DNA from: Arthrobacter sp. AQ5-05
Lineage (GTDB): Bacteria; Actinomycetota; Actinomycetes; Actinomycetales; Micrococcaceae
Direction of reading: 5' to 3'
Assembly: GCF_003287975.1 (NCBI RefSeq)
Contig: NZ_QMKQ01000017.1
Coordinates: 1-64,000 of the forward strand
Length of the DNA: 64,000 bases
Of the stretch, positions 61,116 to 64,000 are shown piece by piece. The notes below the pieces were generated by a model, which had not been told where the DNA came from, ran no database searches, and saw nothing but the letters and a program-made list of their open reading frames with translations. The stretch's first letter is position 1; every line of letters starts with the position of its first letter. The position numbers and the translations under genes were made by a program.

Positions 61116-62522
61116 CTATTTCCCGTAGGAGGTCCGCCACCCGCCCTGGTATTCGGCCCGGGCCACGTTGGAGTACGGCACCGGGCTGACCACCACGCGG
61201 GCCTCGAACTGACGGTGCGGCTCCACGGTGGTCTTCCTGGTACCGCCGTCCGGCTCGCCCCACACCACCCGCAGTTCGGTGCCCTCCGGGACCTCCGGAT
61301 CGACAATGGCCAGGGACAGGCCGCGGCGCTCGTTGGAGCTGTAGCCGGTGAACATGGAAAGGCCCACGGTCTTGCCGTCGGCATCGATGACGCGGTCGTA
61401 GTTCGAGGAGCCGTAGTTGGCCAGCGGAAGGTCGAAATACTTGTAGGGGACCTCGTCGGGATCCAGCACGGAGGAAAGGATCGTGCCCAGGTCTTCCGCG
61501 TTCCAGGCGAGGGTGACCTTCTTGCGCTGGTTGGCCGGGTCGATCTTCTCCAGGGCCTCGCGGCCGATGAAGTCGTGGTCGAATTTCACGAAGGACCCGT
61601 AGCCCAGTTCCCAGGGCGTGTGATAGTAGTCCTCGATGTCAGCGGAGTCGAAGCTTCCGGCCACGGCGTTGGTGGCTTCATAGCTGTCGGCGCCGAGCCA
61701 CTCACGGTAGGCGCGCAGCTCCTCGCCGGTGTAGATCGCCGGCAACGGAGAAGGGATCCAACCGGATTCCAGGGTGTTGGAGGGATATGCCCGTGCGCCG
61801 ACGGGAACCATGCCGAATTCCGCCCCGGCTTCCAGTACCGCCGCGCGGATCATGTCGTAGGATTCGTACGGTCCCCAGATTTCCAGCCCCGGTGCCCCGG
61901 CCATGCCGTGGCGCAGCGTGCGCACTTCCGTTCCGGCGATGTTCATGGTGTCCATGGAGAAGAAGCGCTGCTGCTCCAGCGGCTCCCCGTTCAGTTTCTC
62001 GATGATATTCCAGGCCTGCGGCCCCTGGATCTGGAAGCGCCAGTACTTGCGTTGGACCGGTTTGCCCATGGGGCGGGAGGGCGAGCGGCGATCCACCTCG
62101 ATCTGCACGTCGTACCCGCCGGTTTCCGCCTGGAAGAGCAGCCAGTTGGCGGCAGGGGCCCGGCCCACGTACACATATTCATCCTGTTCCTCGTGGAAGA
62201 GGATGCCGTCGCCGATGACGTGGCCGGACGGGGTGGTGGGTACGTATTGCTTGGCCCGGTTCACGGGGAACACCGCCACGCTGTTGATGGCGGTGTCGGA
62301 GATCAGCTTCAGTGCGTCGGGGCCCTTGATGAAGAGGTTGTCCATGTGGTGGGTCTGGTCGTAGAGCACTGCGGTTTCCCGCCAGGCGCGCTGTTCGCTG
62401 CGCCAGTTGGAGAACTCCGGGGCCACCACCGGATAGACGTAGGCCCCGAGCTGGGAATTGCGCAGCAGTTCGGCGGTGTTGCCAGCCTCATCCAGGACTT
62501 CCTGGAGGTTCTTGGGTGACAT
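61116..62522 (-). CDS. ligM: LigM-type tetrahydrofolate-dependent aryl O-demethylase
   Basis: A 468-aa GcvT-like protein closely resembling LigM of Sphingobium SYK-6, which moves the methyl group of vanillate or 3-O-methylgallate to tetrahydrofolate. Near-identical stretches I recognise include [60 protein letters not shown] and [11 protein letters not shown]. Length also matches LigM (about 470 aa). DesA (syringate) is a close alternative, and DMSP demethylase a distant one. The product from vanillate, protocatechuate, feeds the pca genes, and metF lies nearby. A divergent binding-protein gene shares its upstream region. Confidence 0.85.
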
Positions 62523-62640
62523 GCGAGAAGGCTTCCTTTCCTCGGGGAGCGGTGCCCTCTTTTCGCCGGGCCCGCGCTGGAACACGAAGGAGCGGCGTAT
62601 CTGCCGCTACCCCGACCATAGGCCAACAGACTCACTAAGT

Positions 62641-62754
62641 CGATAGTTATTTTCCGGGAAATCAAACCCCACCCGACCTTGCCGCGGCCCCCGGAGGCGG
62701 TGAAGTTGTGCGCCCAAATATTTGGTTCCCTCGTTATTCCCCGAAACACTATCG
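62641..62754. promoter_or_regulatory. Divergent ligM/binding-protein control region with paired half-sites
   Basis: CGATAGT at 62641-62647 and its reverse complement ACTATCG at 62748-62754 lie near opposite ends of the 299-bp gap between the divergent genes, each nearest the gene it would control. The context around each is also similar when read toward its gene (AT-rich, then CGG). A possible -10 hexamer TAGTAT lies at 62762-62767 on the plus strand. A shared regulator acting on both genes is inferred. Confidence 0.45.
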
Positions 62755-62821
62755 GAATAGGTAGTATGCGACGTACATCACTTTTCTTTCGGGGGCGACC
62801 CCGGGAATCCTGGAGACCAGC

Positions 62822-63820
62822 ATGAAGAGAATCAAAGGTGCGTTGGCCCTGCTCGCGGCACTGAGCTTGGCGGCCTGCGGCAGCGGATCGCCGTCGACCG
62901 GACCGGCCGAATCGTCCACCGAAGGTGCATCCGGAAGCGGCGCCGCCACGGGACTGGAAAAGGTCGAGGTCGGCGTGATCCCGATCGTGGACGTCGCCCC
63001 GATCTACTTGGGCGTCAAGGAAGGGCTCTTCGAAAAGGAGGGCCTGGACGTCAAGCTGACGCTGGCCCAGGGAGGGGCGGCCATCGTCCCGGCCATCATG
63101 AGCAAGCAGATGGACTTCGGGTTCTCGAACGTCACCTCCATGATCGTGGCACGGTCAAAGAGCCTGCCCCTGAAGATGGTGGCACCCGGGGGCAGCTCCA
63201 CCGGTGACACCCAGGCGGACTTCGCCTCGGTGATGACCAAGCCGGACAGCGGCATCAAGGACATCAAGGACCTGGTCGGCAAGAAGGTCGCCGTAAACAC
63301 CCTGAACAACATCTCGGACTCCACCATCAGCGAGGCAGTGAAGCTCGCCGGCGGGGACCATAAACAGGTCCACTTCGTGGAAATGGGCTTCCCCGACATG
63401 GCGGCCCAGCTCGCTGCCGGCAACGTCGATGCAATGGCGGCCGTCGAACCGTTCGTGACCATCTCCGAGGCCGACGGCAACGTTCCGATCTTCTCCAACT
63501 ACGCCGAACCTGTCGACGACCTGACCGTCGCCGTGTACTTCACTTCGGATGAATACATCAAGGAAAATCCCGAAACGGCGGCCAAGTTTGCCCGTGCCAT
63601 GAAGGCTTCGCAGAAGTTCGCCGACGAGAACCCGGACAAGGCCAAGGCCGTCCTGCCGGACTACACCTCGCTGGAGCCGGATGTCATCGAGAAGCTGACG
63701 ATGCCGAGGTACTACACCGAGGTCAACGAGGCCTCCATCGAGAAGATTGCCGAGATCTCGCTGGATCGCGGACTCATTGAAAAGATCCCGGACCTCACGG
63801 CGCTGCTGCCGTCAAAGTAG
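62822..63820 (+). CDS. ABC transporter substrate-binding lipoprotein, NitT/TauT-SsuA type (3), orphan
   Basis: A 332-aa lipoprotein paralogous to those at 54977 and 57603. Signal peptide ends in SLAAC with Cys19, then a Gly/Ser/Thr tether. It shares VEVGVIPIVDVAPIYLGVKE and KQMDFGFSNVTSMI with the second one. No permease or ATPase genes accompany it, so it probably delivers its ligand to the transporter at 58580-61042. Being divergent from the LigM-type gene, a methoxy-aromatic acid such as vanillate is the favoured but unproven ligand. Confidence 0.88.
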   Translation: MKRIKGALALLAALSLAACGSGSPSTGPAESSTEGASGSGAATGLEKVEVGVIPIVDVAPIYLGVKEGLFEKEGLDVKLTLAQGGAAIVPAIMSKQMDFGFSNVTSMIVARSKSLPLKMVAPGGSSTGDTQADFASVMTKPDSGIKDIKDLVGKKVAVNTLNNISDSTISEAVKLAGGDHKQVHFVEMGFPDMAAQLAAGNVDAMAAVEPFVTISEADGNVPIFSNYAEPVDDLTVAVYFTSDEYIKENPETAAKFARAMKASQKFADENPDKAKAVLPDYTSLEPDVIEKLTMPRYYTEVNEASIEKIAEISLDRGLIEKIPDLTALLPSK

Positions 63821-63840
63821 CTCCCACCAAGCATGACGAC

Positions 63841-63876
63841 GGCGGCCTGCCGGGAACGGTTTCCCGGCAGGCCGCC
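63841..63876 (+). terminator. Terminator after the third binding-protein gene
   Basis: GGCGGCCTGCCGGGAA (63841-63856) pairs perfectly with TTCCCGGCAGGCCGCC (63861-63876) around a 4-base loop, 20 bp after the stop. It also lies downstream of the convergent metF end and may serve both. Confidence 0.8.
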
Positions 63877-63905
63877 GACGGTTCTGCAGGCTCCTGGTCC
63901 CCGTC

Positions 63906-64000
63906 TCAGCGGTGCGCCGCAACCCAGTCCGCGGTGGTCTTGATGCCGCCGAAGGTGTAGAAGTGCAGCTTGATCTCCCCATGGCGTACAGGGTCGTAGC
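63906..64000 (-). CDS. metF: 3' end of 5,10-methylenetetrahydrofolate reductase, cut by the window edge
   Basis: Reading the minus strand to the stop at 63908-63906 gives a C-terminal tail ending KLHFYTFGGIKTTADWVAAH plus Arg. The phrase HFYTFGG followed by Thr-x-x-Trp is the usual end of MetF proteins. MetF interconverts methyl- and methylene-tetrahydrofolate. Beside a LigM-type demethylase it would process the methyl-tetrahydrofolate made from aryl methoxyl groups, as in SYK-6, where metF is clustered with ligM. Only 30 residues are visible, so the call rests on this tail and context. Confidence 0.7.
   Translation of the reverse strand, partial: YDPVRHGEIKLHFYTFGGIKTTADWVAAHR

Follow-up and report, generated by a model that had tools for sequence, protein, structure and literature searches.

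In Sphingobium SYK-6, the one-carbon (C1) unit handled by the ligM-metF-ligH operon is passed to tetrahydrofolate (THF) and the associated regulator, DesR, is of the MarR type (PMC6888825), while the SYK-6 reductase is placed, in a 2026 review, in a subfamily that prefers methyl-THF oxidation and co-evolved with LigM (PMC13001107). Corynebacterium glutamicum has one Rieske route together with the transport protein VanK, both encoded in vanABK and repressed by VanR, a PadR-like protein inhibited in vitro by vanillate (PMC8358305), and Rhodococcus ruber R1 possesses a type III VanAB shown to be active on vanillate and other meta-methoxy acids and is reported to be without THF-dependent demethylases (PMC9867520). 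In the hydroxycinnamate region of Agrobacterium fabrum SpG8-1b, a LigM-type protein (Atu1420) and a MetF-like protein (Atu1418) are encoded beside CoA-synthase/hydratase genes under a GntR-type repressor with methylene-THF as its proposed effector, and the sections of the account dealing with this region describe no VanAB or ABC binding protein there (PMC7797058). In Methylobacterium extorquens CM4, chloromethane-derived methyl enters via CmuA/CmuB and, once THF-bound, is oxidized by the divergent MetF and PurU of the MetF2-FolD-PurU set (PMC3621897). Among actinobacteria, an Arthrobacter protein annotated as LigM groups with demethylases (PMC5547118), and a LigM-type protein was reported from a Micromonosporaceae metagenome-assembled genome (PMC9296663). 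Here, we analyzed a 64,000-nucleotide stretch of the soil bacterium Arthrobacter sp. AQ5-05 (hereafter the window; positions 1-64000 of contig C17, which spans 89,704 bases in a 4.65-Mb genome) that ends in ligM, a divergent gene for a substrate-binding protein (SBP3), and metF, with padR and vanAB immediately beyond. Actinobacterial LigM-type proteins have been noted before; the new part is this co-location and a shared putative operator. From the sequence evidence, we consider it quite probable that LigM-MetF, VanAB, and SBP3 form a methoxy-aromatic-acid module, a candidate regulon under one VanR-like PadR repressor.

Set against these systems, the locus resembles SYK-6 in that its C1 unit would go to THF, and differs in having a PadR-type in place of a MarR-type regulator, in the absence of any ligH (fhs) found on the contig, and in the addition of VanAB and a binding protein. 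As in C. glutamicum, padR stands beside vanAB, but at this locus ligM, metF, and the binding-protein gene are preceded by the same kind of site as vanA. A similar VanA, a divergent PadR, and the same intergenic palindromes are shared with R. ruber, whereas the LigM route separates the locus from R1. The A. fabrum region offers a comparable LigM-MetF pair under a different class of repressor, and M. extorquens a divergent MetF whose role may be similar, supplied with methyl in another way.

The ligM gene (61116-62522, minus strand), of the THF-dependent vanillate/3-O-methylgallate O-demethylase type, encodes 468 amino acids (aa) from a conserved start (MSPKNLQ) at 62522, the listed open reading frame (ORF) beginning with GTG at 62585. 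The ORF at 61116 scored 898.1 bits against the NCBIfam LigM model (NF047885; cut-off 580) over model positions 1-460 of 461, aligned full-length with PDB 5x1i (E 1.7e-226; about 1e-226 for 5x1i/5tl4), and is 69.1% identical to SYK-6 LigM over 463 aa, which makes the LigM match first noted in the initial annotation real and far above chance. Residues Y31, Q57, H60, R122, and Y247 of SYK-6 LigM, the catalytic tyrosine and substrate-pocket positions, are all identical in the aligned window protein. Within the group of at least 70% identity (91 rows, window included), R122 is kept in 91/91 and Y31 in 90/91 (one gap), whereas in the 18 rows below 55% identity position 31 is F and position 122 is H, W, or L. 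In a 113-row tree, made by a quick method with SH-like approximate likelihood-ratio (SH-aLRT) support only and rooted on GcvT through a very long outgroup branch, a long, fully supported branch separates paralogues of 42-50% identity from the side that holds both the window protein and SYK-6 LigM. The protein scored under the equivalog cut-offs of the syringate O-demethylase DesA (623 bits; cut-off 800) and the dimethylsulfoniopropionate (DMSP) demethylase DmdA (36 bits; cut-off 410), and a DMSP or glycine-cleavage-type enzyme was rejected on model scores. By every sequence test used, the protein is a LigM-type O-demethylase, ordinary for its family, and its activity would be vanillate-type demethylation with THF. 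The host appears Paeniglutamicibacter-like, because the nearest LigM among the named loci fetched is that of Paeniglutamicibacter psychrophenolicus (98% identity). As for the rarity of such enzymes in actinobacteria suggested at the outset, it holds across the phylum, where LigM exceeded the cut-off in 11/396 genomes (the window's own among the 11), and breaks down within the group, where it did so in 8/15 genomes of the genus and 26/119 of Microbacterium.

The metF gene with which the window closes (contig 63906-64757, minus strand) has only its 3' 95 bp inside (63906-64000) and, as first reported, is a metF, of the LigM-partner type. The full product scored 20.9 bits against Pfam MTHFR, slightly under the cut-off of 24, but matched 269 residues of PDB 7xg9, which we take to be SYK-6 MetF (E 2.3e-77; 46% identity over 268 aa). 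It is closer to this LigM-partner MetF than to the genome's housekeeping MetF (29% identity over only 124 aa), as expected of the LigM-type methylenetetrahydrofolate reductase subfamily; a role as canonical MetF was rejected, the housekeeping gene (204 bits) sitting on contig C23. The cluster enzyme probably works in the oxidative direction. To place the pair in context, we used 78 LigM loci (74 actinobacterial) kept from the best 80 of at least 583, which for that reason lean to close relatives, several sharing a genus, and which include 3 of the 8 LigM-positive loci of the genus under other names. Of the 74 actinobacterial loci, 54 carry a LigM-type metF (at least 40% identity), 40 padR, and 36 purU no more than 5 kb from ligM, so that purU often occupies the place of SYK-6 ligH; 29 share the one-strand order metF-purU-ligM-padR, 13 of these with an upstream aldehyde dehydrogenase. 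The initial annotation had proposed looking for folD, purU, or fhs to the right of position 64000, but queries with FolD, PurU, and Fhs gave no match anywhere on the contig, including from the window to the contig end, so that the ligH member of the SYK-6-type operon is missing from this cluster; fhs (C27:35998-37656), three purU genes over the cut-off, and one folD homologue lie elsewhere in the genome.

Other arrangements around LigM-family genes were observed alongside. Paeniglutamicibacter gangotriensis (L167, that is G003:C10, and L105) carries a further ligM copy (74%) close to purU and to a metF-like gene of only distant kinship (27%), and five Sinomonas and Tersicoccus loci (L089, L107, L119, L129, and L138) carry three LigM-family genes in about 10 kb, two at 71-76% and one at 42-43% identity. 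The Rhodococcus opacus plasmid pRop44186_a (L161), typed as mobilizable, holds two LigM-family genes, metF, purU, a folD-like gene, pabB, and a Mur-ligase-family gene, a set that reads as a portable folate/C1 kit.

Within 3.5 kb beyond metF lie a PadR-type regulator gene (contig 65382-65963, minus strand; PadR family domain) and, divergent from it, a Rieske VanAB pair, vanA (66079-67173, plus strand; Rieske oxygenase with a VanA C-terminal domain) and its reductase partner vanB (67210-68217, plus strand), with a VOC-like gene named from sequence alone (64859-65260, minus strand) between metF and padR. VanA is 72.3% identical over 358 aa to the VanA of an R. ruber MSA14 plasmid, whose gene pair is matched exactly by both primers published for R1 vanAB. 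Type III VanAB have been delimited by an identity of 60% or more to the VanA of R. ruber R1 (PMC9867520), a range in which the cluster VanA would fall by proxy, the comparison being with the MSA14 homologue. If VanAB is of type III by that proxy, LigM and VanAB would therefore attack the same bond with different chemistry, side by side. Two further VanA_C genes in the genome are 39-41% identical to the cluster VanA. The contrast originally drawn between LigM here and VanAB in most actinobacteria fails, because a type-III-like VanAB (contig 66079-68217) belongs to this very cluster and shares its putative operator. PadR aligned with PDB 6lg2 over residues 1-191 of 193 (46% identity over 178 aa); 6lg2, like 5z7b, we take to be VanR of C. 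glutamicum, and both the near full-length similarity and the divergent placement by vanAB are those of a VanR.

The 299-bp gap between ligM and SBP3 (62523-62821) contains conserved blocks that read alike toward each gene and share the core CTAW-N4-WTAG, a motif defined on the window together with 15 gaps between ligM and SBP3, from loci of which 11 are among the 78. Two near-palindromic matches, CTAAGTCGATAG on the ligM side (62635-62646) and CTATCGGAATAG on the SBP3 side (62749-62760), face both genes as putative PadR/VanR-type operators and bear out the symmetric control region proposed from the window; we take the palindrome to resemble the published VanR operator. On the 89.7-kb contig, the core occurs four times, once each at the ligM, SBP3, metF (64804-64815, beyond the window), and padR/vanA (66034-66045, between the two genes) promoters, while letter-shuffled contig sequence yields it once on average. 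In the 4.65-Mb genome, the extended form of the motif is found at six distinct sites, four of them in this cluster, and no aromatic-catabolism gene was recognized around the other two (C6:41398 and C22:31917). Across the 78 loci, 73/77 motif copies lie at ligM, metF, SBP3, vanA, or padR promoters and only four in the rest of the non-coding sequence, which amounts to 351 kb (a roughly 245-fold difference in density), at least one promoter copy being present in 48/78; without the 11 motif-defining loci, 53/57 copies in the other 67 lie at these promoters. The motif accompanies padR, occurring in 36/40 loci with padR within 6 kb versus 12/38 without (Fisher p 1e-7, uncorrected for kinship). All four sites are present in seven of the eight LigM-positive genomes of the genus, the eighth being without the metF site, and three LigM-negative genomes with padR-vanAB retain the padR/vanA site alone. 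R. ruber has two copies between padR and vanA, and a Rhodococcus qingshengii plasmid stretch has no CTAW-N4-WTAG of this exact form. The matching sites suggest that one repressor may control the two unrelated demethylation routes and the transport protein, PadR being the candidate to bind them. Among the matches listed in literature searches, one of which was dominated by unrelated papers, there was no published account of PadR-type control of ligM.

SBP3 (62822-63820, plus strand) is an NMT1-family lipoprotein (PF09084, 130 bits versus a cut-off of 20.5) that carries a lipobox, aligns with its orthologues, and is SsuA-like (131 bits, under the SsuA subfamily cut-off of 163.5); it shares 46% identity with SBP2 and 38% with SBP1, the two other binding lipoproteins nearby. 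The dedicated binding protein described in the initial annotation is thereby upheld, being divergent from ligM and traveling with it in the genus, and its label as an orphan has to be qualified, as a permease/ATPase set occupies the neighboring operon (58580-61042). In 8/8 LigM-positive genomes of the genus (the window's included), the order is ABC ATPase, ligM, SBP3, metF, padR, vanAB, one genome having an extra stretch with another SBP2-like gene between the ATPase and ligM. The comparison with LigM-negative genomes covers five of the seven, those keeping the ABC operon. At the ABC operon of these five fetched loci there was no LigM, LigM-type MetF, or SBP3 orthologue, and one 34% SBP3 homologue; padR-vanAB follows the operon directly in three, the stretch ended 1.7 kb past it in the fourth, and the fifth had no VanA within 10 kb on that side. 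Since these loci lack ligM, SBP3, and metF beside a kept ABC operon, ligM-SBP3-metF behaves as one cassette in the genus, set between the ABC operon and padR-vanAB.

The ABC operon encodes permease 1 (58580-59419; PF00528), permease 2 (59416-60189; PF00528), and an ATPase (60179-61042; PF00005), preceded by SBP1 (54977-55978; PF09084), an acyl/aryl-CoA ligase (56042-57586; PF00501), and SBP2 (57603-58583; PF09084), all on the plus strand. Farther upstream are short-chain dehydrogenase/reductase (SDR), acyl-CoA dehydrogenase, and MaoC-like genes (51192-54745, plus strand; the MaoC name from sequence), which accompany the operon in the genus loci with enough stretch fetched and in some Microbacterium. 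A permease-1 homologue (70-77%) was present in 9/9 genomes checked; in eight of them (seven Arthrobacter), SBP3 adjoins ligM and this homologue lies outside the 10-kb ligM flanks, and in the ninth, a Nesterenkonia (permease 1 at 73%), the ABC genes stand directly before ligM. In Microbacterium, permease 1 (at least 52%, one broken 66% copy included) co-occurs with LigM (21/26 LigM-positive versus 7/93 other genomes; Fisher p 5e-13, uncorrected for kinship), one of the seven others having LigM pieces under the cut-off only. In 14 of the 21, the two genes are no more than 8 kb apart (once beside a LigM fragment), and in six more they are at most 38 kb apart on the same contig; two loci run in one direction throughout, as SDR, acyl-CoA dehydrogenase, MaoC, SBP, CoA-ligase, ABC, aldehyde dehydrogenase, metF, purU, ligM, padR. 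The nearest plasmid relatives of SBP3, themselves distant (about 40%), cluster with ring-hydroxylating dioxygenase, PdxA-like dehydrogenase, and ABC genes, and because these relatives stand among dioxygenase genes and the permease 1 of their clusters is 71% identical to that of the window, aromatic carboxylates fit as predicted substrates of the whole transporter. They are the candidate ligand class for SBP3, with the neighboring permeases as its probable partners. In one genus locus (L173, G002:C1), motif sites at 12395 and 16150 fall in the ABC/CoA-ligase part and perhaps draw the operon into the regulon there.

Elsewhere on the contig, pca-like (protocatechuate-pathway-like) genes occupy two stretches (41-47 kb and 76-79 kb); among them, the protocatechuate dioxygenase beta subunit alone has a specific domain, the thiolase scores under the pcaF cut-off, and the remaining genes are named from sequence. 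Directly after vanB comes a transposase-like fragment (68214-68615; named from sequence), and in the next 5 kb or so few genes were called. Adjacent SIS-domain and OMPdecase/HUMPS-family genes at 87472-88728 resemble hexulose-phosphate isomerase/synthase of ribulose monophosphate (RuMP) formaldehyde fixation, and within the window, major facilitator superfamily transporter, LysR-like, and aldehyde dehydrogenase genes at 26014-29943 possibly form a separate aromatic aldehyde/acid unit.

The observation in the initial annotation is thus confirmed and its interpretation partly supported, and several findings count against the module as we draw it. The ABC operon is not exclusive to LigM, because five of the seven LigM-negative genomes of the genus retain it (permease 1 at least 85%); it has no CTAW-N4-WTAG site on the window's contig, and the plasmid-borne relatives that stand among dioxygenase genes resemble SBP2 (51-52%) more closely than SBP3. 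Genome-wide, the extended motif is no more frequent than its backward control (8 rows for either), only its placement being telling; 12 loci have the motif without a nearby PadR, 4 have PadR without the motif, and 26 have neither, and the L173 locus has two extra copies outside the promoters listed above. Finally, the cluster metF is without the adjoining purU that is usual in other loci. An alternative is that LigM and MetF are the sole functional pair, with SBP3, VanAB, and PadR accidental neighbors in an aromatic-catabolism island, as the scarcity of SBP3 and VanA within 5 kb of ligM in the actinobacterial loci (12/74, one at 35% identity, and 3/74, respectively) and the three LigM-negative genomes that retain padR-vanAB without LigM, LigM-type MetF, or SBP3 would allow. 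We regard this as unlikely, given that one palindrome marks the promoters of ligM, SBP3, metF, and vanA and is nearly absent from other parts of the loci scanned, and that SBP3 follows ligM in all eight LigM-positive genomes of the genus.

The palindrome could itself be a general promoter or terminator element in place of a PadR operator, as the 12 motif-bearing loci with no PadR found nearby might indicate, yet a general element would hardly leave just 4 of 77 copies in the other non-coding DNA of the 78 loci, and the padR-vanA intergenic region of R. ruber also has two copies, so that we hold this to be very unlikely. Even less do we expect LigM to act on a methoxylated or methylenedioxy compound other than vanillate (e.g., dicamba-, sesamin-, or berberine-like). 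The superfamily does include demethylenases and dicamba demethylases (PMC5547118, PMC9404685), and berberine demethylenases were once annotated as vanillate/3-O-methylgallate O-demethylase, but the berberine enzyme BrdA shares just 26.7% identity with LigM, and an Arthrobacter protein annotated as LigM had 1% of BrdA's activity on berberine (PMC5547118). The high LigM model score, the retention of R122 and Y31 that is lost in the more distant rows, and the protocatechuate-pathway-like genes of the same island also speak against such a substrate.

In the reading we prefer, a methoxy-aromatic-acid module under one VanR-like PadR, vanillate-type acids would enter via SBP3 and the ABC permease/ATPase of the neighboring operon. 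The PadR repressor would sit on the CTAW-N4-WTAG palindromes at the ligM, SBP3, metF, and vanA promoters until released by an aromatic acid, probably vanillate, whereupon ligM, metF, SBP3, and vanAB would be induced together. LigM, oxygen-independent, would transfer the methyl group of these acids to THF, yielding methyl-THF, which the dedicated MetF would oxidize to methylene-THF and so return to the C1 pool, with FolD, PurU, or Fhs encoded elsewhere in the genome completing C1 oxidation, while the oxygen-using VanAB would remove the same kind of methyl group as formaldehyde. More broadly, we lean slightly toward a picture in which one VanR-type repressor runs a two-track regulon (a Rieske/formaldehyde and a THF route) plus an exchangeable binding protein that re-aims a shared ABC importer, the LigM operon having been wired, across many actinobacteria, into the VanR-type switch that elsewhere controls vanAB.

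Together, these results provide a candidate regulon, open to test, for the demethylation of lignin monomers by the THF route in actinobacteria, with a sharp operator motif that would predict which loci respond to vanillate-type acids. Sister genomes with and without LigM lend themselves to a natural comparison between the formaldehyde and methyl-THF routes under what would be one switch, and SBP3 is a candidate handle on the ABC uptake of methoxy-aromatic acids.

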